Assembly (NCBI GenBank): GCA_025463545.1 | Contig: JAODAR010000011.1 | Coordinates: 103,880 to 167,879, forward strand | Reading direction: 5' to 3' | From: Microbacteriaceae bacterium | Lineage (GTDB): Bacteria > Actinomycetota > Actinomycetes > Actinomycetales > Microbacteriaceae | Length of the DNA: 64,000 nt | Part shown: piece by piece, positions 8,599-64,000 of the stretch | How the letters are laid out: each line of letters begins with the position of its first letter | Position numbering within the stretch: position 1 is the stretch's first letter | The notes under the pieces: generated by a model | The model's input: only the letters and a program-made list of their open reading frames with translations | What the model was told of the DNA's origin: nothing | Databases searched by the model: none | Program-made: the position numbers and the translations under genes

Positions 8599-9426
8599 CT
8601 AGGTTCGCGCCGGGAAGCCCTGCGCCGTCAGCCAGTCCAGGGTGACGGCCGCGACGTCCCGCCATCCGCTGTCGATCGTGAGTGAATGGCCACGCCCGGC
8701 GAACTCATGCAGATCGGTCCGCGACGACGTGTGATCCGCGTACAGTTTCAGCACCTCCCGGGTCACGACCTCGGGCACGACATGGTCCTCGGTGCCGCTG
8801 GTGAGCAGCAGCGGCCCGCGCGCCGCCTTGTGCGTGTCGACGCGGGCCGGGGAGTTGCGAGAGAAGTTGGCCGCGGTGTCCTCGAACAGCGGTCGCCCCG
8901 GGCCGGGAATCGTCCACTGGTCGTGGAGGGCATCCGACTCTTCCTCGCTGAGCGCGTTCCCGAAGCTGTAGCGGAACTGTCTCGCCGTCAGGGACACGGT
9001 GCGCTTCCGGTTCGCCGGGTTGGACAGCACGGGAAACGCGGACTTCAGCTGGGCGAATGGCAGCGCCCGCACTCCCTTGATCGGCGCCGGATCGATGGCC
9101 ACCGCCGCGACGGCCAGGTCGTTGGCGAGGAGCTCCTGCGCAATGAGCCCACCGAAGGAGTGCCCGATGACGATCGGCGTGGCACGCATGGTTGCGATGA
9201 GCGACGCGTAATGCTCGAAGATCTGCAGGATTCCGACATCATTGAGGGCGTCGGGATTGTCACGCGTTCCCTGCACTGTGTCCGAGTCTCCAGGCCAGCC
9301 GGGTGCGGTCGCCCGGTATCCTTGCTCGGAGAACAGGTTGATCCAGGGCGCCCAGGCGGCCGCATGAATCCAGAGTCCGTGGATGAAGAGCACGGGCGGC
9401 GCGACAGCCGCGGGTGTGTCCGACAT
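8599..9426 (-). CDS. Alpha/beta hydrolase (esterase/haloperoxidase-like)
   Basis: A 275-aa cytosolic alpha/beta hydrolase. PPVLFIHGLWIHAAAW carries the oxyanion HG motif, IVIGHSFGG the nucleophile (Ser near residue 90), TSGTEDHVVP the acid and FAGRGHSLTID the catalytic His. The start at ATG 9426 is supported by GAGGAG (complement of 9435-9440); an upstream in-frame extension lacks such a site. Similar proteins are annotated as lysophospholipases or non-heme haloperoxidases; the substrate is not predictable here. The gene converges on fadB with only 14 bases between stops. Confidence 0.87.
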   Translation of the reverse strand: MSDTPAAVAPPVLFIHGLWIHAAAWAPWINLFSEQGYRATAPGWPGDSDTVQGTRDNPDALNDVGILQIFEHYASLIATMRATPIVIGHSFGGLIAQELLANDLAVAAVAIDPAPIKGVRALPFAQLKSAFPVLSNPANRKRTVSLTARQFRYSFGNALSEEESDALHDQWTIPGPGRPLFEDTAANFSRNSPARVDTHKAARGPLLLTSGTEDHVVPEVVTREVLKLYADHTSSRTDLHEFAGRGHSLTIDSGWRDVAAVTLDWLTAQGFPART

Positions 9427-9535
9427 GGATTCTTCTCCTCGTTGTGTGAGCTGCCAGTCACCCTTCCGGTCGAGACCGCCGGCTCGGCGGGTCACTCTCG
9501 ACCGGAAGTGCCACCCTCGAGTGAATGCGAGCGGA

Positions 9536-10525
<990 letters not shown>

Positions 10526-12609: not shown

Positions 12610-12659
12610 CGGTGGTCGAGCTGGGCGAGACCACGATCTCGCTCCCAGCCCGACCACCG
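12610..12659. terminator. Large imperfect inverted repeat between acnA and dxs
   Basis: CGGTGGTCGAGCTGGGCGAG pairs with a near-complementary right arm ending CCCGACCACCG around a short loop. This would form a long stem just after the aconitase stop (12683), with no evident U tract. The TGGTCGAGC...GACCA pattern resembles intergenic palindromes common in Microbacteriaceae. A terminator role is inferred from position and structure. Confidence 0.6.
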
Positions 12660-12682
12660 AGACGGCCGGCCCACCAAGACGG

Positions 12683-15532
<2,850 letters not shown>

Positions 15533-19840: not shown

Positions 19841-20131
19841 ATGGCTCAGGTTGATGAACCGGTGATGGTGTGGACGAGGAACACCGGTGTGCCGGAACGC
19901 CTGGTTTGGCGCGCCCGCCGCTTCCGGGTGACCGATACTCCGACTGCGCTGGTCGGGACGTGCGACTGGTGGAACCCGTTCGCTCCGCACAGCTTCGGCA
20001 TCGGGCATACGCCGCTGACGATTGCCGGCTGGCGGTTCCAGGCAACAGCGGACGACGGTGAGACGCATGTTTTCGATGTGCATCACGATGACGACGCCCA
20101 TCGCTGGCGCCTGGTGCGCATCTTCGACTGA
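19841..20131 (+). CDS. Small SOS-controlled protein, DUF6504-like
   Basis: A 96-aa protein whose layout resembles DUF6504, a small family often encoded with the ImuB/DnaE2 mutasome in actinobacteria: an early Trp/Arg-rich strand (ERLVWRARRFRVTDTP), a central CDWWNPF, and a C-terminal HVFDVHHDDDAHRWRLVRIFD. ATG 19841 is preferred over an upstream in-frame start that would place the LexA box inside the coding region. A second gene of similar layout, also with a LexA box, lies in the island at 57070. Function unknown; a role in damage-induced DNA repair or mutagenesis is inferred from the operator and family context. Confidence 0.72.
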   Translation: MAQVDEPVMVWTRNTGVPERLVWRARRFRVTDTPTALVGTCDWWNPFAPHSFGIGHTPLTIAGWRFQATADDGETHVFDVHHDDDAHRWRLVRIFD

Positions 20132-52762: not shown

Positions 52763-52782
52763 GTGGACCGCCATTCAACCGT

Positions 52783-52837
52783 GAGGCGCGTATAACGCAC
52801 CTTCCTTTCGCGAAGGAAGGTGCGTTATACGCGCCTC
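52783..52837. terminator. Perfect 25-bp inverted repeat after the SDR gene
   Basis: Two perfectly complementary 25-base arms (left arm 52783-52807, starting GAGGCGCGTATAACGCACC) surround a 5-base TCGCG loop. It begins 20 bases after the SDR stop, so it could end that transcript, but there is no U tract and the perfect symmetry also fits a mobile palindromic element. Type given as terminator by position. Confidence 0.6.
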
Positions 52838-52946
52838 ACCGGGGGTGGTGGGGAATTGCACGATTAACGAAGTAAGGATTCAAGGGGACCCAGTCGTTCG
52901 GGCTCCGCCCTCACTCCTCCTCGAATCGCTGGGTACGATTAACGAA

Positions 52947-52979
52947 GGATCCAAGGGGATTCGAACCCCTGACCCCCTG
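52947..52979. repeat. Left attachment-site copy (tRNA-Ala 3' end fragment)
   Basis: GGATCCAAGGGGATTCGAAC and the following CCCTGACCCCCTG repeat exactly the bases at 63945-63977. The flanking base pairs differ (no CCA end here), fixing the core at 33 bases. A degenerate earlier copy, with the same preceding 13 bases (ACGATTAACGAAG at 52860 and 52935), lies about 75 bases upstream. Confidence 0.9.
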
Positions 52980-53511
52980 TTGTTTTCAGCGGGTCTAGGA
53001 TTCGTCTATTCTGAGCCGTCAATTCGACTTAACTTGGACGAAGTACTGGTCAGTTGGTCTTTTCCAAAACCAAGTTTCTATGTTGCGATACTCAATTTTA
53101 TGGCAATCGGATGATTTAGACCACCCTCGACGTCGCTGAAGTGTCGAATAAGTGTCGACCCCTCACGCGGGTCGTTAGCAGATCGCCAGCACGAACACCC
53201 CGTCTCACACTTCCGGATGGACGGCCTCGCTCGACGCTGCACCACCGCCAAAGTCGCCGGCATCGCCCGCCAGAAACTCCTCAACGAGCGGCACTCCGGC
53301 ATTCGTCGCAACCTCATCCATGCCCACCGATGCGCCCTCGTGAGTGTGATCATTGCCGTGCTTAGCGTGGTCGTGACGATCAGCACCAGGGCGAAGCTGC
53401 GCAAAATCGGGATCGCGACGTTCCCACCCGACAGAGAAATGGCCTGAAGCCACAAAACGTGGGTTCGGGCTATTCCGATGTCCTGAGACATCACATTTGT
53501 TGCGGGGACAG

Positions 53512-53545
53512 TGCCGGGGACAGGATTTGAACCTGCGACCTCTGG
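53512..53545 (-). other. tRNA 3'-end fragment (second attachment-site scar)
   Basis: Read on the minus strand the sequence contains a T arm with GGTTCAAATCC and an acceptor end CCCCGGCA, the 3' third of a tRNA. No 5' half follows, so it is not a tRNA gene. Its isotype cannot be fixed from the fragment. It suggests another integration event at a different tRNA. The surrounding 52980-53670 otherwise holds no recognisable gene. Confidence 0.7.
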
Positions 53546-54189: not shown

Positions 54190-56646
54190 TCAGCGGCTCG
54201 CTCGACCTGTCCCGACAGAATCGAATATCTCCAATGCGCGGGTCAGTTCAGTCGCCGCATCAAATGGCACTTGGGAATGATGAAGTATCGAACGTATCGC
54301 TTCGCGAACGTAGGGAACCTTCTTCGACGCCAGAGAGCTAGTTGCTTCACTTCGCAGGAATCGACTGACTTGCTCGAGCCGCTTCTTGTCCGACTCCAAT
54401 TTCTGAGGAACCGCGTTTAAGGCTCTTAGATATGTGAGACAACACTCGAGGGTCGCATCGACTAGCTTGCGATCTTTTCTAGATGCTCGCGCAAGGTCAT
54501 GGCCGAGATGAAAGCCGGCCATTGATTTATGAATTGCTTCGTCAGCTCGATGAGCCTTCCATTCTGAGTCTCCCCACCTTCCCCAGCTATCGACGATTGC
54601 CGTCGTTACAACTATCTCCTGACGGCCCGTCGAACTCACGAGAGCTTCCTCCAGGAGTTCTTGACCAGCCGCGTATGAACCGTTCCAGACTCGCAACCGG
54701 CCTAGTAGGAACGCGGTATTTACGTTGGGCCAAGTGGAGTACGCCTGTTCAGCGTAAGGGAGCGCGAGCGTAGCGTCATGAAGTCGTCTTCCCATCACGT
54801 CGGCCAATAGGTAAGCGGTGGTTGCGACCGTAGCGTCGCCGTGCGCGTATCCCAGAGCGTTTTGGTATTCCGAAACGGCTGACTCGAAATGGCCTTCCTG
54901 GACATCAAGGTCAGCGGCTACCCGGTATATCTCTGAAAATTCGGGATTGAAGTTCTTGGCGCGTTCGACCTGTTCGCGGGCTGTGGCGACTTTTCCCGTA
55001 CGCGCGAGTCGGAGCGCAGCTCGAAGAAGGTGCACGGAGGGATTATCTGCGTCCGTTCTCGGGCGAATTAAAGCGGTATCTATACTTCTACCGCGCTCGG
55101 CAACCCGCTCTTCGAGAGTCGCCTTGTACTGCCTCTCACGCTGAAGGACGGCAACGATGAAAGTTCCAGATCGATCTTCTCGACCGAGGAACGCGCGGGC
55201 GGTAGGAGTCAGTGCTAGACGTCCTGAGATGGCTCCAGCTACTTCCGGCTCAACAATCACGAGAGAGCCTCTAGTAAGTTCCTGGGTCGCGCTTCGAAGA
55301 TCGTCAATTGGCATATCGGTGAGAACCGCAAATTCATCGAAACCTATAGCGCGATCCAAGGCACGAAGGACCGTCAAAACAGCCTGCGAACCTTCGCTAA
55401 GACTGTCGTATACGTTCTTAACGCAGAAGTCGAGCAGTTCTTGTTGCGAATGAATGAGATCGCTTGGAACGCGCCCGGCTTCAGCCGAAAGAACGTACCA
55501 GCGAATTGCTAGCGGACTGAAGCGCAGTCTAGCCACCACTTCTTCGAGTGTCTTATCGCTGAGACCTGCCAGTGGACGTTGTCCACGCTTAGCAGCAAAT
55601 TTCCTGAAGAGAAGCTTCGCTTCAGCCATGCTGAGGGGAAGCAGCGGGTATCGACGCTCGAGTTCTCCGATACCCAAGCGGCTCGTAAAGAGGTAACGAA
55701 CTGTGTTCGGAAGGGCTTCGTAAAGCGCGATGATTTCTGAGCCCTGAGCCGACTCGAGATTGTCCAAGACAATCAAGCACTGAATGCCGTCGAGCGACTC
55801 TGATAGCTCCCTTATAGAACCATTGAAATCGCCACTTAGGCCGCCACTCAGAGCAGCGACAGACTCGTCGATTCCTTGGATGGCGTCATTAAGCAGTTCC
55901 ACGCCGTTAGCGGTTAGCTTCTCAGTTTTGAGCGATACCCAAAGCACGGCGTCGAACGGATTCGAATCGCTATCAAGAAGTCGATACGCGACATCCAGGG
56001 CGAGAGCTGTCTTTCCAATACCGCCTTCTCCTGTAATGGTAATTACGTTCTCACGCCCGAATTCCAGCGCCTGCATCAACTTCTTTGCTTCATCGCCGCG
56101 GCCGACAAGGCCGGTCTCGTCGTAGTCAGGATCGGGGAGATTATGGAGCACTTTGTCGACGGTGCCTACCGGTTCGTGAAAGGCGGGCTCCCACGCTGGA
56201 TCTGCCTTGAGCCGGTCGAGAGTATGTGCCGTTTCTTCCCACTGTCGAGAACGGAACGCCGACAGAGCGGACACTGCGTTCTCGGGATCGTCAGGGTGCA
56301 GTGGCCGACCGTGCATTACACGGTTGCGAATTGGCGTGAGAGTTTCGAGGAAGGATGCGTTTGCTCCGAGCTCATCAGCAAATTCGACGGGGAGGTCTTT
56401 TCTGTTTCGCAGTAATAGGTCGTAACAGGGGCGAAGATCTAGGTAGTGAATCGCGCTCGATTCCGCGCCAGCCGAATCGCCATTCTTTCGACCAAGTGCG
56501 CCCTCGTAGTCGGGCCCTAATAGCGTCGCTTCCTCTTCGTACGGCAAAAGGAAGCGAATGACCGCACTGCGCATATCTGTCTCGAAACTATCGATCAGAG
56601 CAAAGAGCCGATTTCGGCTCATACGCATAGTTTCGATTCTCGCCAC
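54190..56646 (-). CDS. HEPN-NB-ARC-TPR STAND ATPase, candidate anti-phage defence protein
   Basis: An 818-aa protein. Residues 1-170 form a helical domain with a HEPN-type R-x4-H motif, IRNRVMHGRPL (Arg107, His112). The NB-ARC ATPase (about 178-400) has GLVGRGDEAKKL, Walker A ITGEGGIGKTALA (Lys212), Walker B CLIVLDNLES (Asp295), sensor LFTSRLGIGELERRYPLLPLS and RFSPLAIRWYVL. A winged-helix-like part (about 405-490) and a helical repeat half (560-800; EIYRVAADLDVQEGHFESAVSEYQNALGYAHG is TPR-like) follow. GTG 56646 is used since AAGGAG stands about eight bases upstream. HEPN domains are often RNases; STAND proteins are switch ATPases sensing intruders. Lower GC than the chromosome and located in an island: acquired. 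An in-frame regulator role is the alternative. Confidence 0.85.
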   Translation of the reverse strand: MARIETMRMSRNRLFALIDSFETDMRSAVIRFLLPYEEEATLLGPDYEGALGRKNGDSAGAESSAIHYLDLRPCYDLLLRNRKDLPVEFADELGANASFLETLTPIRNRVMHGRPLHPDDPENAVSALSAFRSRQWEETAHTLDRLKADPAWEPAFHEPVGTVDKVLHNLPDPDYDETGLVGRGDEAKKLMQALEFGRENVITITGEGGIGKTALALDVAYRLLDSDSNPFDAVLWVSLKTEKLTANGVELLNDAIQGIDESVAALSGGLSGDFNGSIRELSESLDGIQCLIVLDNLESAQGSEIIALYEALPNTVRYLFTSRLGIGELERRYPLLPLSMAEAKLLFRKFAAKRGQRPLAGLSDKTLEEVVARLRFSPLAIRWYVLSAEAGRVPSDLIHSQQELLDFCVKNVYDSLSEGSQAVLTVLRALDRAIGFDEFAVLTDMPIDDLRSATQELTRGSLVIVEPEVAGAISGRLALTPTARAFLGREDRSGTFIVAVLQRERQYKATLEERVAERGRSIDTALIRPRTDADNPSVHLLRAALRLARTGKVATAREQVERAKNFNPEFSEIYRVAADLDVQEGHFESAVSEYQNALGYAHGDATVATTAYLLADVMGRRLHDATLALPYAEQAYSTWPNVNTAFLLGRLRVWNGSYAAGQELLEEALVSSTGRQEIVVTTAIVDSWGRWGDSEWKAHRADEAIHKSMAGFHLGHDLARASRKDRKLVDATLECCLTYLRALNAVPQKLESDKKRLEQVSRFLRSEATSSLASKKVPYVREAIRSILHHSQVPFDAATELTRALEIFDSVGTGRASR

Positions 56647-57069: not shown

Positions 57070-57357
57070 ATGCCGGAAATCATTGACGTCCCCGTGGTGG
57101 TGGAGCTCTCGCCTGCCGGCGACCCACGCGCTTTTATCTGGGACCGCTTCGAGCACACCATCATCGGTCAACCTCAGGCGATCTTTTCCCGAACCCACTG
57201 GTGGGCGAACGATCAAAACTACGGGATGAGAGACCTTAACCGCATCGACACCGAGCTGTGGCGGGTTGACGCGTCACGTGGAGGCGAGGAGCAGCGCCGG
57301 TACGACCTGCGGCGGGACGCTGACGGCACGTGGGTGCTCGCCCTCGACTGGGGATGA
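57070..57357 (+). CDS. Small SOS-linked DUF6504-like protein
   Basis: A 95-aa protein: PVVVELSPAGDPRAFIWDRFEHTIIGQPQAIFSRTHWWANDQN, then TELWRVDASRGGEEQRRYDLRRDADGTWVLALDWG. The layout (early Trp-Arg strand, central WW, C-terminal YDLRRD-G-W-L) resembles DUF6504 and the gene at 19841. Its stop overlaps the following dnaE2 fragment in ATGA, the arrangement found in actinobacterial mutasome operons, where such a gene sits beside error-prone polymerase genes. imuA and imuB are absent here. Function unknown. Confidence 0.72.
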   Translation: MPEIIDVPVVVELSPAGDPRAFIWDRFEHTIIGQPQAIFSRTHWWANDQNYGMRDLNRIDTELWRVDASRGGEEQRRYDLRRDADGTWVLALDWG

Positions 57358-58195
57358 GCTTCCCACACCTCCACGTGGCCAGCGCCTACTCGACGCACTA
57401 CGGCGTCACCCTCCCGGAAGCCCTGGTCGAGCAGGCAGCGGCCCAGGGCTCGGACTTCTTGGCGGTCACCGACCGGGACGGCCTGTACGGGGCGGTGAAG
57501 CATGTTCGCGCGTGCGCGGCCGCCGGCATCCGCCCGGGGCTGGGCGCTGAGCTGGCCGTCCACGACGATGAGCATCGGCCGCTTGGCCGTGTCGTCGTCC
57601 TCGCTCACGGGAACACGAAGGGTCGCGGGTATGGGGCGCTCTGCCGGGCCGTGAGCGCCGCGCATCAGCTGGGCAAGAAGCCCAGCGTCTCCCGTGCCCG
57701 GCTGGCGACGCTCGCGAGCTTACGATCTCTGACGGTCCTCATCGGCCCGGCATCCGATGTGGGGCAGGCCATCGAACGGCGGGACAGCTCCGACGCGCAC
57801 GCCCGCATCACCGCTTGGAACCGCGCCATGCCACCGGAGTCCATCGCACTCGAAGTGGTCAGCCACCTCACCGAGCTTGGAACCCGGGGCAGCGTCACAC
57901 CGGCGACCAAAATGCTGAGCATGGCGGAGGCCATGCTGCTGCCCGCGGTCCTCACCAACGCCGTCCGGTACGGCACGCCGGAGGAAGCGGCCACCGCCGA
58001 TCTGGCGGACGCCGCACGCCTACTCACCCCGCTGGCCCAATTGGATCAGGTGCAAGTCAACGGGCAGGCGTACCTGAAACCGGGGTGGGCCATGCGGCAG
58101 GTGGCGCGGATGATGGTCGACGTTGGCACCCACGAGGACGGGGCGCTTGAACGCCTGCTCCGGGACACGGAGCAGCTCGCCGCGTTTTCTGAGGA
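57354..58195 (+). pseudogene. dnaE2: Truncated error-prone DNA polymerase DnaE2 (PHP-domain remnant)
   Basis: About 280 codons match the start of DnaE2: FPHLHVASAYSTHYGVTLPEALVEQAAAQGSDFLAVTDRDGLYGAVKHVRACAAAGIRPGLGAELAV, GYGALCRAVSAAH, ALEVVSHLTELG, LLPAVLTNAVRYGTPEEAATADLADAARLL, AYLKPGWAMRQVARM. Past about 58195 (after RDTEQLAAF) similarity ends, though the frame stays open to 58631. A complete DnaE2 is over 1000 aa, so palm, fingers and the rest are gone. DnaE2 performs translesion synthesis under SOS control. The stump cannot polymerise; a residual PHP function is unlikely but not excluded. Confidence 0.8.
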
Positions 58196-58501
58196 CCTTG
58201 TGGCGTCTTGCGCAAAAAGGGTCGGTCGTTCTTCGAGTCGAGGATTAGCCAACCGGAATTTGTTCCACTGCACCTTCCCATGCGGGCAATCACATCCCGG
58301 CCAATCGGGACCGCGAATCGCCTGGGCCATGTCCCTCGAAGGGCGCCCGGACACCGTCCGTCATACGGAACGCTGCAATGGAGTGCCGGACGGATCGCTA
58401 CGTGCGGGATGCCCGACCCCCGGCCGCGCCCCGGAAGCGCAAAGTTCAATGTCGGTGGCCCGGTGGATAATGTCGATGAGAAGGGTCGAGAGGAAAGCCG
58501 A

Positions 58502-59020
58502 ATGTCAGATGTCATCTCCGCCACGGTTGGATCCGTCACTGGAGCGCTCATTGAGTTCATTCACGGCAGTCATCGCGATCGCGCACGCGACCGAAGGGAC
58601 AGGCGCCGAGCGAGCGCTGAAAGCCTCCTGAGCGACCTTCGACCGCTTCATCGACGGATGCGGAAAGTCGACTTTTCGCGTAACCCCACAAAGTGGTCGC
58701 AAGACATTGAGCGCGCGCTGCAATGCATTGAAGCGAACGAGTCGTTGCTGCCTGATGAGTGGCGACATCTATATTGCAGCATTCGCGCGGCCGTCGGCGA
58801 GGCCACCGGCCTCGGATGGAGCGAGGTGCTCGGCGGCAGGCGGTCCAAAGTCGCTTCCTTCGACGCGTTATGGATCGAGCACGGTGCTGCCTACCTGGGC
58901 TACGCCATCCTTAGGATCGAGCGATGGCAGAACGCATATCGTGACACATCCGCGCGTCGCGTGCGTCTCGCTGACTTCGATACCTGGCTTCGGCTCACCG
59001 GCAAGGTCTCGGGAGTCTGA
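58502..59020 (+). CDS. Hypothetical protein of the island
   Basis: A 172-aa protein with a short hydrophobic start (VISATVGSVTGALIEFIHG), a strongly basic stretch (DRARDRRDRRRASAESLLSDL), then a helical domain (KWSQDIERALQCIEANESLLPDEWRHLYCSIRAAVGEATGLGWSEVLGGRR ... WIEHGAAYLGYAILRIERWQNAY). ATG 58502 is preceded by GAGAGGAAAG. No known family is recognised. It could be membrane-associated. Its nearest unbroken neighbour is the SOS remnant; a link to the STAND gene is not supported by distance. Confidence 0.6.
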   Translation: MSDVISATVGSVTGALIEFIHGSHRDRARDRRDRRRASAESLLSDLRPLHRRMRKVDFSRNPTKWSQDIERALQCIEANESLLPDEWRHLYCSIRAAVGEATGLGWSEVLGGRRSKVASFDALWIEHGAAYLGYAILRIERWQNAYRDTSARRVRLADFDTWLRLTGKVSGV

Positions 59021-59427: not shown

Positions 59428-59657
59428 CTACCGGACCAGGTCACCCAGGCGAAGCTCACCCTCGACGCCCCACGACCAGGGGCCGCCCCTGGTGATGTCC
59501 AGGTTACGGAACACCACGGGATAGCTGCGCTCGGCGTTCATGTCTGCCGGGGAGTCCTGGACATGCAGGTGCAGGTGCGGCTGACTCGAATTACCGTTGT
59601 TCCCGACCGCGGCGAGCAGCTGCCCGCTCACCACGGAATCCCCGACCTGGACCGTGG
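59428..59657 (-). pseudogene. C-terminal fragment of an M23-type metallopeptidase
   Basis: The minus-strand frame reads TVQVGDSVVSGQLLAAVGNNGNSSQPHLHLHVQDSPADM and ends SWGVEGELRLGDLVR before the stop. GNSSQPHLHLHV is the conserved last active-site strand of M23 (LytM) endopeptidases. The N-terminal two thirds are missing; the IS5-type transposase fragment abuts it at about 59657. Confidence 0.8.
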
Positions 59658-60001
59658 CGAGTCGTGTTCGTCGCGTGCTGATGCGCACGCGCGATGGTGG
59701 AGTCCGCCGACAACGACCAGTCCACCAGCCGGGCCGCGTCCGCGGCAGCGGTCAGCTTCTGGAACACGGCGTCCCAGGTGCCGTCCGTCGCCATCCGGTG
59801 ATGCCAGGTCCACACCGTCTGCCACGGGCCGAACACCTCGGGCAGGTCCCGCCACGCGATCCCTGTCCGATACCGGTAGATGATCGCCTCGACCATCACC
59901 CGGGCGTCCGAGATAGGCCGTCCCTTGCGCCCCGTCGGACGCGGCAGCATTCCCTCGATCAAGGACCACTGACTATCTGAAAGCACCTGGAACCGCGACA
60001 T
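59658..60001 (-). pseudogene. IS5-family transposase, N-terminal fragment
   Basis: ATG 60001 starts SRFQVLSDSQWSLIEGMLPRPTGRKGRPISDARVMVEAIIYRYRTGIAWRDLPEVFGPWQTVWTWHHRMATDGTWDAVFQKLTAAADAARLVDWSLSADSTIARAHQHATNTT, about 115 aa typical of the first part of an IS5/IS427-group DDE transposase, including the first Asp (DSTIARAH). The remaining catalytic residues are absent: the reading enters the peptidase fragment. No intact terminal inverted repeat was found. Confidence 0.85.
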
Positions 60002-60047
60002 GAACCCAGCATCCCAGCACACCGGCCATTCATTTGTCGGACACGCC

Positions 60048-60170
60048 CTAGGTGTCCTTGACGCCGAGAGTGCCCGCCTCCTGTTCAACTGCGGCAGCTG
60101 CCGCTTTCTCCGCAGCAGTCGGCCGCGGTTTCGGTGGTACTGGTGCGCCAACCGGGGCGACAGCTCGTAA
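60048..60170 (-). pseudogene. 3' end of an unidentified gene
   Basis: The minus frame ending at TAG 60048-60050 reads GAPVPPKPRPTAAEKAAAAAVEQEAGTLGVKDT, with coding-like codon use, but no start or body can be traced upstream of about 60170. It is probably the tail of a gene cut by rearrangement. Unrecognised. Confidence 0.4.
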
Positions 60171-60728: not shown

Positions 60729-62012
60729 CTAAGGGCCCAATGCAAGCCGGTTCACGTTGCCGTTTCCGACGACCCATTTGTCGCGTGGACTAAGGAGGTC
60801 GAAGGCGTTGGTCCCTGGATCCATCTCGACATTGAGAATCGTGGCTGGCTCACCGAGCGGGCTAACCGATTGGGCATACATCTCGAAGCACGGCCAGTGG
60901 TCCACATTGCCTGCGAAGGAAACAGTCACAGAGCCGTCGGTCTCCGGGTGCAGGGTGATCTCTCCTTCCGCGCCGACTGTTGGCGCTCCGGTTACCAGCG
61001 GGTCGGCTGCCGCAATCCGCAATGGAATGGTCCACACTTCTTCCGCGAGTTCAGGCGGCCCGATGACGGTCAAAGTCGGTGTGGCGGTTTTGCGTTCGAC
61101 CTCCGCGCCAGACCCGCTCACCTCTATCGTTTCGCCGACGCGGAGGACGCTTTCCGTGAGCTCAAGCCCTTGCTCCGTATACCTAGCGAAGTCCGCAGTG
61201 CCCATCCACAGGTCGAACTGACAATGGACGCGTGAGGCTGCCGTCAGCTTAGAACTGAACGTGCGCTGGTCTGTGGAGAAGAGGCGAATCGGGCCGCGCA
61301 CAGGCCCCGTCGTGGGTGGCGCTACGGCGCGAACCAGCGTCTTGTTGGGATGATTCGGCCAGGACACGATGTCGTCACCAGCGTCCGGGATAAATATGTT
61401 GAACCACACACGCACTTGGTTGACGCGGTAGCTCTGCGGGGTGGCTGTCCAGGTGCGGCGCGCTTTCAAATCACCGGCAGCAACATCCTCAGCGCCTTTA
61501 AGCGTCGAGACCGTTCGGGGCAGCGGCTCACCCCTCGCGAACTGCGTCGGCAGGCTCACCACACCGACATTTGGTCCCGTGACGGCTCGCCTTGGAGGCC
61601 CCGTCACGTAATACTCCTTCTTGACCCAGTCGACGTCAAAGATGCGGTTGTTCTCTGTTTCGAATTCTGCGATGTCCTTCGGTCCGGCCGCCTCCTCAGT
61701 CTTTGCTGGGGTGCCTGGGAGGGGCGGATTCATACCTGACAACCCTTTGCACCTGGTCTTGTCCGGGTCGGCGAGCCAGCCGAGACTACTGGGGAGGAGA
61801 AGGGCCGAAAGCTTGGTGTCCACTGTGATCTCGGAAGACCCGGGGCCGTTGAATAGCGATTTGACCAGATCCGTTCCCTCTACCGCCCATTCGCGCACTT
61901 CCCAGAACTGTCGCGCGCCCTCGTCCGGCAATGCGAACGCCGCCGTTGCGTAGCCGACGGTCTTGATTTCCTGTGGCACGTTACCCTCAAAAAAGATTGA
62001 CCTGAGGGGCAT
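60729..62012 (-). CDS. Hypothetical 427-aa protein of the island
   Basis: A soluble-looking, beta-rich protein with no signal peptide or membrane segment. It begins PLRSIFFEGNVPQEIKTVGYATAAFALPDEGARQFWEVREWAVEG and has a central RVWFNIFIPDAGDDIVSWPNHPNKTLVRAV, then LFSTDQRTFSSKLTAASRVHCQFDLWMG, and ends GNVDHWPCFEMYAQSVSP ... NVNRLALGP. The two strand-rich blocks with F-x-DQR-F and W-P-FEMYA patterns suggest an Ig-like or lectin-like fold. I do not recognise the family. ATG 62012 is uncertain; ATG 62042 is an alternative. GC is closer to the chromosome than the STAND gene. Confidence 0.65.
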   Translation of the reverse strand: MPLRSIFFEGNVPQEIKTVGYATAAFALPDEGARQFWEVREWAVEGTDLVKSLFNGPGSSEITVDTKLSALLLPSSLGWLADPDKTRCKGLSGMNPPLPGTPAKTEEAAGPKDIAEFETENNRIFDVDWVKKEYYVTGPPRRAVTGPNVGVVSLPTQFARGEPLPRTVSTLKGAEDVAAGDLKARRTWTATPQSYRVNQVRVWFNIFIPDAGDDIVSWPNHPNKTLVRAVAPPTTGPVRGPIRLFSTDQRTFSSKLTAASRVHCQFDLWMGTADFARYTEQGLELTESVLRVGETIEVSGSGAEVERKTATPTLTVIGPPELAEEVWTIPLRIAAADPLVTGAPTVGAEGEITLHPETDGSVTVSFAGNVDHWPCFEMYAQSVSPLGEPATILNVEMDPGTNAFDLLSPRDKWVVGNGNVNRLALGP

Positions 62013-62282
62013 CACTCCATCGTCCCGGTGCCGCTGCCCCATGCGATGGCCCCGATGGTACCCCTGGTGCTGCGGCACAGCAATGGGGGACCCGGGAGCA
62101 AACCTAGCCTCTTGCGTTTGAGGTTCGGGTTACGGGCAGTCCCTCTGCACCTAACTCGGGGAGTCAGGACTTGGTGTTGTCGGGATTCATCGCACGAACT
62201 CACTCCTCGCGCGCGACCATTTCTTCACAAGTCATCCAGCACTTCCGCCGGTACTAACGGAGAGCGAGCTACACGCTGCTCA
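62013..62282. other. Intergenic region, no gene recognised
   Basis: This holds the presumed promoter of the 427-aa gene and the end of the integrase transcript. Short open frames occur but none is supported. Confidence 0.5.
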
Positions 62283-63551
62283 TCAGGTTTCGTCGTCGTC
62301 GACGCCTTCAAGATCGGTCAGCAGATCCTCTTCATCCGTTGTCGTGATTTGCCGAAGAAGCGAATCATCCGGATCGATTGGGCGGAGGGTGCGTTGGAGC
62401 AGTTCCGCCGGGCCGTGATCGACAGTTCGGTCGGGTTCGATGTAGTGACCTTCAGTAATAGCCGTGGAGCCATGGCCGAGAAACGCGGCTGCCGCATCGG
62501 TGCTGCCACCGCGGGCTATAACGGTCGCCCCGGTGCGGCGGTACCAACGCAGAGTGATGTCGGGTTTGTCTAGTCCTGCCAGCTCCAGAAATGCTCGAAA
62601 CGTGCGGCGAACGTTGTAGGGGCTGAAGGGGCCACCGTTCCGATTCGCAAAAATCGTCCGTTCGGTATCGTTCGGGCCCATCGCGGCAAGCCGCGCGCGA
62701 AGAACTTTGGCCGCGAACTCGGGCAAAGCGATGCGGCGAACCGAGTGCTCTGTTTTGGGGTGGGACTGGCGGACAGCACCGTGACCGGTTTTAAAGACGA
62801 CCGTGCCGGTCACGTCGATCACCATGCCTTGCGGACCATCACGAACATCGCACGGACGCAAAGCGAGGGCCTCGCCAATCCTGAGCGCCGATCCAAGCAG
62901 TACTTCCAGAATGTCCCGGACCTGCCCGTCGGGTTTCGGGCCGAGAACGTCGGGGCCGGTGCGCCAGGTCGCTGCCGCGTGTCGGATGGCCGCGATCTGT
63001 TTCAGGGTCAGCGCCTCCGGAGTGCCTTTGGGTTTCTTCAGCTGCGACGTGCCCTCGACGGGGTTCCGTGGGATCGCGTCGTGCCGCAGAGCGAAACCGA
63101 ACATGACATTCAGCATGGTCCGCGAATGCTTCGCCCGGGAGTACGACACTGCCAGTTCCGACTTCAAAAAGCGTTCCACCCGACCGGTCGTGATCTCCCC
63201 CAGTGTGAAGTATTGGAACGCGGGCAGCACATGCAGGCGGATATCGTCGCGGTAGTTCTCCTTGGTTTGATCCACTAGGTCCTGCAGTTCGAGATCTGCC
63301 AGCCACAGCGCCACAAGGTCACCGAAGGAACTGCTGAGCGAGAGCATCCCGGACGTTCCAAAGCCGGAGCGATTCAGCAGTCGCAATTTCAGATTCGCCT
63401 TGGCTGCGGATTGGGATTCGCCGCTTGCGGTTACTACCCGCAGGCGCCCATCCGCATCCCGGTAACGTGTAGCAACTAGGAACCGGCCGGCTTGGCGGCG
63501 AACGCCGATCTGCCCGTACGTGCCAATTGCCGTGTGAGGGCGGCCGGCCAT
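62283..63551 (-). CDS. int: Tyrosine recombinase / site-specific integrase
   Basis: A 422-aa phage-type integrase. N-terminal AP2-like arm-binding part (AGRFLVATRYRDADGRLRVV), core-binding domain (FGDLVALWLADLELQDLVDQTKENYRDDIRLHVLP), catalytic domain from about 190: LLGSALRIGEALAL (Arg224), ITLRWYRRTGATVI (Arg338 of box II), FLGHGSTAITEGHYIEP (His360, nucleophile Tyr370). In box II the usual His (H-x-x-R) is replaced by Arg335. ATG 63551 overlaps the excisionase stop (TAATG). It inserts the island in the adjacent tRNA-Ala. Confidence 0.92.
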   Translation of the reverse strand: MAGRPHTAIGTYGQIGVRRQAGRFLVATRYRDADGRLRVVTASGESQSAAKANLKLRLLNRSGFGTSGMLSLSSSFGDLVALWLADLELQDLVDQTKENYRDDIRLHVLPAFQYFTLGEITTGRVERFLKSELAVSYSRAKHSRTMLNVMFGFALRHDAIPRNPVEGTSQLKKPKGTPEALTLKQIAAIRHAAATWRTGPDVLGPKPDGQVRDILEVLLGSALRIGEALALRPCDVRDGPQGMVIDVTGTVVFKTGHGAVRQSHPKTEHSVRRIALPEFAAKVLRARLAAMGPNDTERTIFANRNGGPFSPYNVRRTFRAFLELAGLDKPDITLRWYRRTGATVIARGGSTDAAAAFLGHGSTAITEGHYIEPDRTVDHGPAELLQRTLRPIDPDDSLLRQITTTDEEDLLTDLEGVDDDET

Positions 63552-63784
63552 TACCCTCGCCCCACCCGCGAACGTCGTGCGTCGTCGTCTTCCAAACGAC
63601 GAAGCCACGCCTCGACCTCGGAAGCCCGAAATTTCAGCTCCCGGCCGATACGGAAGCCGTGTGGACCTCGACCATGATGGCGCAGGTCGTAGATCGTCTG
63701 GATCGGGACGCCGAGACGTGCCGCCAGATCGGAAATGGACAGAACCGACTCGAAGTCGCTGGAGAGAGAATTTTCGCTAGTCAT
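63551..63784 (-). CDS. xis: Excisionase-like helix-turn-helix protein
   Basis: A 77-aa MerR/Xis-type winged HTH: SVLSISDLAARLGVPIQTIYDLRHHGRGPHGFRIGRELKFRASEVEAWLRRLEDDDARR. Such proteins bend DNA to favour excision and commonly precede the integrase. ATG 63784 is used as it gives the family start. Its TAA stop overlaps the integrase ATG. Regulation of excision is inferred from family. Confidence 0.88.
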   Translation of the reverse strand: MTSENSLSSDFESVLSISDLAARLGVPIQTIYDLRHHGRGPHGFRIGRELKFRASEVEAWLRRLEDDDARRSRVGRG

Positions 63785-63940
63785 ACCTGCGAGGTGTGCA
63801 AGCGATTCCGAACCCGCCCGGGAATACCTCGATGGCATTCGAAAAATGTGGGTACGAAAGCGAAAAGTGTCGAATAAACGTCGAACGGCCATCCCAAATC
63901 CCTTGTTCGGGTTTTGGAATGGCCGTCTGACTGGTACTTC

Positions 63941-64000
63941 TGGTGGATCCAAGGGGATTCGAACCCCTGACCCCCTGCATGCCATGCAGGTGCGCTACCG
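63941..64000 (-). tRNA. tRNA-Ala (anticodon GGC), 3' part; 5' end beyond the window
   Basis: Read on the minus strand: D-arm end TAGCGCACC, anticodon stem-loop CCTGC-ATGGCAT-GCAGG (anticodon GGC), T arm GGTTCGAATCC, acceptor GGATCCA and an encoded CCA. The first 15 or so bases of the tRNA lie past position 64000. It is the insertion target of the island. Confidence 0.9.
63945..63977. repeat. Right attachment-site core in tRNA-Ala
   Basis: Exact 33-base match to 52947-52979 within the T arm and acceptor stem, with the integrase gene on its left. Integration restores a complete tRNA at this side. Confidence 0.9.

Follow-up and report, generated by a model that had tools for sequence, protein, structure and literature searches.

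What does a large ATPase gene of low GC content do within a mobile element of an actinobacterium? The question is raised by a 64,000-nucleotide stretch of contig JAODAR010000011.1 from a Microbacteriaceae bacterium (the window, meaning the whole stretch analyzed), in which a reading made from the letters alone, here called the sequence-only reading, had singled out a gene for a protein with a HEPN domain, an NB-ARC ATPase module of the STAND class, and a TPR-like half, and had proposed it as a stand-alone anti-phage system. We find that the gene is a real, intact, and well-supported member of a kind already known in silico. We consider it likely that it encodes a single-protein anti-phage (anti-invader) system resembling nucleotide-binding leucine-rich repeat receptors (NLRs), with a mobile element integrated at a tRNA gene as its carrier and sensor-gated RNA cleavage as its mode of action. 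Coordinates of all features are collected in Table 1.

Domain architecture and conserved motifs

An AAGGAG stretch, read by eye, lies 7 to 8 nucleotides 5' of the GTG start. The putative active-site motif, the Walker A motif (with K212), and the Walker B motif (with D295) all lie at the residues given for them in the sequence-only reading. The homolog search scored 7,988 candidates and returned 464 homologs, of which 120 were listed; two of these were dropped because they were shorter than 780 amino acids. R107, H112, K212, and D295 are each kept in 118/118 of the remaining close homologs (among the matches listed), a conservation that far exceeds chance expectation. R107 and H112 are also invariant in both more diverse sets (42/42 and 53/53), and in the 42 distant members, with identities of 19 to 51%, E22, R107, and H112 are the sole invariant positions of the HEPN domain. 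Across phyla, the R-x4-H motif is kept in 65 of the 67 open reading frames (ORFs) of the family set defined below. The two ORFs without it (L056 and L058) do not have the N-terminal region as called, though the tblastn match of L058 does span it.

The AlphaFold2 (AF2) model of the HEPN domain has a pLDDT (predicted local distance difference test) score of 94.9. Its comparison with Swt1-type HEPN models, a check proposed with the sequence-only reading, gave two answers. With a single-protein hmmscan, HEPN_Swt1 matched the window protein weakly (E value 0.029, residues 62 to 127, 15.1 bits against a cutoff of 27.5), and among 53 family members it reached an E value of ≤0.01 in 10, the best being 7.4e-4. 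The profile-profile comparison, in contrast, was strong: hhalign against 13 over-cutoff HEPN_Swt1 (PF18731) domains gave a probability of 97.5% (E value 7e-12) with motif aligned on motif; the reversed profile gave 1.9%, and none of 40 column shuffles exceeded 0.9%. Across 22 whole genomes, PF18731 had only two matches at an E value of ≤0.01, both below the cutoff and both on family genes. A search of PDB sequences with a profile of the HEPN part returned no match, and Foldseek with the HEPN model returned no significant one. The invariance of R107 and H112, together with the profile-profile match to Swt1-like HEPN domains, bears out the HEPN assignment.

The central module is over the Pfam cutoff for NB-ARC (32.1 versus 23.5 bits) and under that for NACHT (17.0 versus 26.7 bits), so the distinction drawn earlier between the two holds. 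A match to NRC1 covers residues 174 to 492. The invariant STAND columns are G206 to G209, G211 to T213, D295, T321 to R323, and P378 to L379, which we take to be the P-loop, Walker B, TSR sensor, and PLA motif of the NB-ARC/AP-ATPase clade. From residue 495 onward the AF2 model is helical and is matched by TPR superhelices. TPR_2 and TPR_19 match 37 and 35 of the 53 family members, respectively, and TPR models remain below the cutoff in the window protein itself; together, the helices, the superhelix matches, and the family-wide TPR_2 matches uphold the TPR-like assignment of the C-terminal half.

Part of the family, including most of the loci sampled, carries an additional C-terminal cold-shock domain, on which the sequence-only reading was silent. 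Of the 53 members, 28 are matched by Pfam CSD, and a purpose-built cold-shock hidden Markov model found the domain in 71/118 proteins and at 47/62 loci, beyond which L057 and L062 have similar C-terminal tails by eye. A midpoint-rooted tree of 180 sequences, with the cold-shock domain excluded, places the window protein in a clade of 50 sequences (support of 1.0), all without the domain. This clade is nested in larger groups that hold cold-shock-bearing relatives, the next nodes having supports of 0.778, 0.956, and 1.0. The simplest reading is that the window clade lost the domain secondarily; such a loss is new here. The domain is also missing in some gammaproteobacterial, cyanobacterial, and other members.

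A tRNA-integrated island

The gene had been described as part of a tRNA-borne island, and both ends of that island can be placed. Rfam detects a tRNA gene at the end of the window, and a perfect 33-bp copy of its 3' end lies on the far side of the family gene. ARAGORN found no tRNA in the window because the window end truncates the gene. A tyrosine integrase gene and a gene for an HTH_17 protein adjoin the tRNA gene. The tRNA 3'-end repeat thus delimits an integrative element of about 11 kb, with the HEPN-NB-ARC-TPR gene as cargo near its far end. The GC content of the gene is 0.547, compared with 0.672 left of the island, in keeping with the lower GC reported for it earlier.

Distribution and genomic context of the family

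Querying genome contigs with the single protein gave no relatives; an alignment-based scan gave 77 loci. Left out of these were L069 to L077, which match mainly in the ATPase part, and L013 and L068, which were not recovered by the ORF caller; with L078 added from a viral scan, the family set comprises 67 ORFs, including L056 and L058. According to record titles, the family occurs in Actinobacteria, Bacteroidota, Proteobacteria, Bacillota, Cyanobacteria, Chloroflexi, Acidobacteria, and others. Full-length copies number one per genome in 22/22 genomes (in four of which not all candidates were scored), and a family gene was present at an E value of ≤1e-60 in 0/395 other genomes, a phylum-wide draw centered on a Microbacterium carrier with two candidates scored per genome. 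The combination of domains, earlier called uncommon, is rare when counted per genome, but it is spread over many bacterial phyla and was described in silico in 2013 (PMC3710099). The family was not found in phage records. Plasmids gave 10 distant matches, in two of which query coverage was 80% or more, and a viral contig collection gave one match, L078.

No conserved operon partner was found: the widest clusters of neighboring ORFs span 7, 6, and 6 of 69 neighborhoods, and the third of these contains tyrosine-recombinase-like frames. The gene stands alone, as the sequence-only reading had it. The family gene is lower in GC content than its flanks at 63/64 loci, by 10 points on average, while 163 other ORFs of at least 500 amino acids at those loci, which may include spurious ones, average 3 points above their surroundings (64 of the 67 loci were used, those with flanks of <8 kb being dropped). 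A tyrosine-recombinase-like ORF is present at 14/67 family loci (1,269 kb) versus 1/22 controls (310 kb in shorter stretches), and at L006, L010, L028, L030, and L063 no more than about 200 bp separates such a frame from the family gene.

Proximity to a tRNA gene was rejected as a general rule, being seen at 4/22 family loci (one of them with a transfer-messenger RNA [tmRNA] gene) and in 4/22 shorter control stretches. At the Dyella locus (L024, positions 9311 to 9662), a tmRNA gene lies about 330 bp upstream of the family gene; tmRNA genes are usual attachment sites. The Janibacter locus (L048, positions 12643 to 13771) has the family gene, a recombinase-like fragment, and a tRNA-Thr gene in that order, a layout similar to that of the window.

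We surveyed the neighborhoods with PADLOC models at a threshold of 1e-10. The family side consisted of 232 ORFs of at least 100 amino acids from 22 of the 67 loci, which matched 33 and 72 families in two batches (the best 25 of each were used). The control side consisted of 22 stretches of the same genomes, 21 placed on cold-shock-like matches elsewhere and one placed arbitrarily, with 255 ORFs matching 30 (best 25) and 22 families. Matches at most 6 kb from the family genes included LmuA/LmuB (Lamassu), AbiEi/AbiEii, a type I restriction enzyme with its methylase, Dsr2, SoFic, and a ThsA-type model. Control matches were mostly to the helicase models DpdF, BrxH, PsyrT, Cas3, and DrmD and to RtcR, with others including CARF_2OG, mad3, PDC-M37B, DolB, and AriA. 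DpdF, BrxH, mad3, PDC-M37B, DolB, PbeA, and RtcR were common to both sets; Lamassu LmuA/LmuB, AbiEi/AbiEii, type I restriction-modification, Dsr2, and SoFic were not among the control matches listed. The neighborhood survey thus places defense models near family loci that are absent from the listed control matches, a contrast that is qualitative because matches are not assignable to single ORFs.

An Escherichia coli homolog in a prophage slot

Using one Vibrio and one Shewanella member as blastn queries, we found a homolog in 13 of 5,426 E. coli genomes, with a 100.0% match of the gene in all 13 carriers. Aligned with the window protein over 606 columns, its product shows 30% identity, and it retains the motifs RNRVMH and GEGGVGKT. 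The allele of strain ML35 occupies positions 19863 to 22190 of L116 (WP_000885267.1). In 13/13 carriers, xisE, intE, the family gene, and the end of icd lie in one place, within an e14-like prophage, and in the two strains viewed the family gene is the sole annotated gene between intE and icd. The GC content of the gene is 0.345; the icd side has 0.511, and the prophage stretch has 0.484. No attachment repeat was found around the gene with exact 14-mers of the icd end.

In the e14 prophage of MG1655, the same interval holds ymfD, ymfE, lit (annotated as cell death peptidase Lit), and a small RNA; Lit excludes T4. We also viewed the interval in 10 other strains, hand-picked among 40 rows spread over 500 records while avoiding K-12 repeats. 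It contained AAA and HNH genes in two, a DNA methylase with AAA in two, DUF262, KwaB-like, HEPN/Toprim-associated, and DUF2357 genes in one each, and hypothetical genes only in two, one of these with an integrase remnant. AAA plus HNH, DUF262, and DUF2357 are characteristic of systems of the Septu, GmrSD, and McrC types. The intE-icd slot looks like a defense cargo site in which the family gene is one alternative, and the placement of the family in it is new here. Since the homolog occupies the slot that holds lit in K-12, the anti-phage idea is directly testable in E. coli. Support for the putative defense role claimed earlier is good and comes from context, namely, the mobile elements and the E. 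coli prophage slot with its defense-type cargo.

In the 13 records viewed (L116, L117, and L119 to L129), the gene sets between intE and icd are interchangeable and several are of defense type. Matches to intE are present in 500 records, so the slot could be mined systematically.

Relation to known systems

A 2013 survey of HEPN domains (Anantharaman et al.; PMC3710099) lists Swt1-like HEPN domains together with STAND ATPase, TPR, and S1 domains (Npun_F6454, MED222_16016, and Desac_1927), describes them as "mostly active," and notes that some HEPN-STAND proteins have a cold-shock-like OB fold at the C terminus. The architecture was therefore already known in silico: HEPN, STAND, and TPR are common to those proteins and the window protein, whereas the C-terminal OB domain (S1 in the listed proteins, cold-shock-like in some HEPN-STAND proteins) is absent here. 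This likeness is one of listed domain sets; Nostoc and Vibrio members do occur in the present family (L035 and L036). A TIR-STAND-TPR protein of P4-like satellites, as described by Rousset et al. 2022 (PMC9122126), likewise joins an effector, a STAND module, and a C-terminal TPR region and is cargo of a phage-satellite defense hotspot; likened by description, it has a TIR effector where the window protein has HEPN.

From Apaf-1, CED-4, and plant NLRs, the window protein differs by its HEPN effector, TPR sensor, and bacterial origin. Avs (AVAST) and bNACHT proteins are stand-alone, with a STAND ATPase between effector and sensor, as in the window protein. The NACHT and NB-ARC scores given above separate it from bNACHT, and no Avs model was among the PADLOC matches of the window protein and the family members, although PADLOC-DB presumably holds such models. 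The PADLOC candidate model PDC-M34B matches residues 8 to 126 of the E. coli protein (E value 5.9e-10) and 25 of the 53 family members at an E value of ≤0.001, and it has no match to the window protein at that threshold; because the model has 192 positions, the likeness is limited to the HEPN part. In the open-licence literature, supplementary tables being outside the search, we found no experimental test of a HEPN-STAND-TPR protein. PMC13092281 reports validated HEPN-containing E. coli systems, one of which could be the present protein.

Proposed mechanism and alternatives

In the mechanism that we propose, the NB-ARC module would keep the protein inactive at rest, probably in an ADP-bound state, and the C-terminal TPR superhelix would recognize an invader product or the resulting disturbance. 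Nucleotide exchange would then allow NB-ARC modules to oligomerize, as a ring or in another form, pairing HEPN domains so that composite R-x4-H active sites form. The paired HEPN domains may cut RNA (tRNA, rRNA, or mRNA), and the cell would be stalled or killed before the invader spreads. If so, an NLR-type receptor would answer infection by RNA cleavage. More tentatively, and with the odds against it, the protein could form a "HEPN resistosome," in which assembly of an NB-ARC wheel, like those of Apaf-1 and plant NLRs, joins HEPN protomers in pairs that act as gated RNases, the cold-shock-free clade of the window sensing by TPR alone and other members also reading RNA. In 2013, HEPN-STAND-TPR proteins were put forward as likely conflict proteins, and the E. 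coli homolog makes the prediction a simple experiment, a route that could connect NLR-type sensing with RNA cleavage.

The rival that fares best, though we think it improbable, is that the protein serves addiction or element maintenance, with a HEPN RNase toxin stabilizing the mobile element or excluding competitors rather than defending the cell. The mobile context of both the window island and the E. coli prophage suits such a role, the intE-icd slot fits element-versus-element exclusion equally well, and, as the titles of 6m6u and 8xeh indicate, HEPN-MNT toxin-antitoxin pairs are known. However, no cluster of partner ORFs occurs in more than 7/69 neighborhoods, and a large self-regulated STAND architecture would make a partner antitoxin unnecessary. 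We give still less credence to a scaffold in which HEPN is a non-nuclease RNA- or protein-binding dimerization domain. Some HEPN versions, such as that of eukaryotic Swt1, are thought to be inactive after motif loss (PMC3710099), and the single-protein HEPN_Swt1 match is weak, but here the motif is retained in the close homologs and the family ORFs at the counts given above. Least probable of all is a STAND-type regulator of host genes, with TPR sensing a metabolite or protein, NB-ARC switching, and transcription as the output, as one source's label "LuxR family glucitol operon transcriptional activator" would have it, given that no helix-turn-helix (HTH) family is among the best 25 of 40 Pfam families matching the 53 members, that the invariance of R-x4-H points to catalysis, that no ORF cluster recurs beyond the 7/69 neighborhoods, and that the family is rare, GC poor, and, in E. 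coli, prophage borne.

Features of the window and remaining island contents

Table 1. Coordinates of the HEPN-NB-ARC-TPR gene, its domains and motifs, and the island features in the window
Feature	Position	Strand	Basis
HEPN-NB-ARC-TPR protein gene	54190..56646	minus	Intact ORF, 818 amino acids, GTG start
Swt1-like HEPN domain, about residues 7-150	56197..56628	minus	Conservation, AF2, profile-profile comparison; weak fold search
R107-N-R-V-M-H112, predicted RNase active-site motif	56311..56328	minus	Homolog conservation
NB-ARC STAND ATPase module, about residues 164-490	55177..56157	minus	
Walker A GEGGIGKT, residues 206-213	56008..56031	minus	Sequence and conservation
Walker B LIVLDN, residues 291-296	55759..55776	minus	Sequence and conservation
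TPR-like superhelix, about residues 530-800, predicted sensor	54247..55059	minus	AF2, structural matches, Pfam in family
33-bp copy of tRNA 3' end, distal attachment site	52947..52979		Perfect repeat
Second copy of 33-bp repeat, inside 3' end of tRNA gene	63945..63977		
tRNA gene, truncated by window end; anticodon GGC (Ala) by eye	63944..64000	minus	Rfam
Tyrosine integrase	62283..63608	minus	Phage_integrase, 1.8e-12
HTH_17 protein, excisionase-like; true start probably internal	63551..63985	minus	HTH_17, 5.4e-11; excisionase role inferred

The remainder of the island is worn. It consists of an IS4/5-type transposase piece (DUF4096; positions 59591 to 60151), a 449-amino-acid ORF with no Pfam match (60729 to 62078), and, at 57070 to 58631, a small ORF followed by a PHP-domain ORF that may begin a DnaE-type polymerase. 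The small ORF presumably resembles DUF6504, and this stretch may be what is left of a mutasome cassette. Another sequence that resembles a tRNA 3' end, different from the 33-bp repeat, lies at 53511 to 53545, some 550 bp into the island; it occurs once in the window and is perhaps the scar of another integration. Just outside the far end of the island, after a gene for an NAD(P)-binding protein, positions 52781 to 52839 hold a perfect 27-bp inverted repeat with a 5-nucleotide loop, which is terminator-like.
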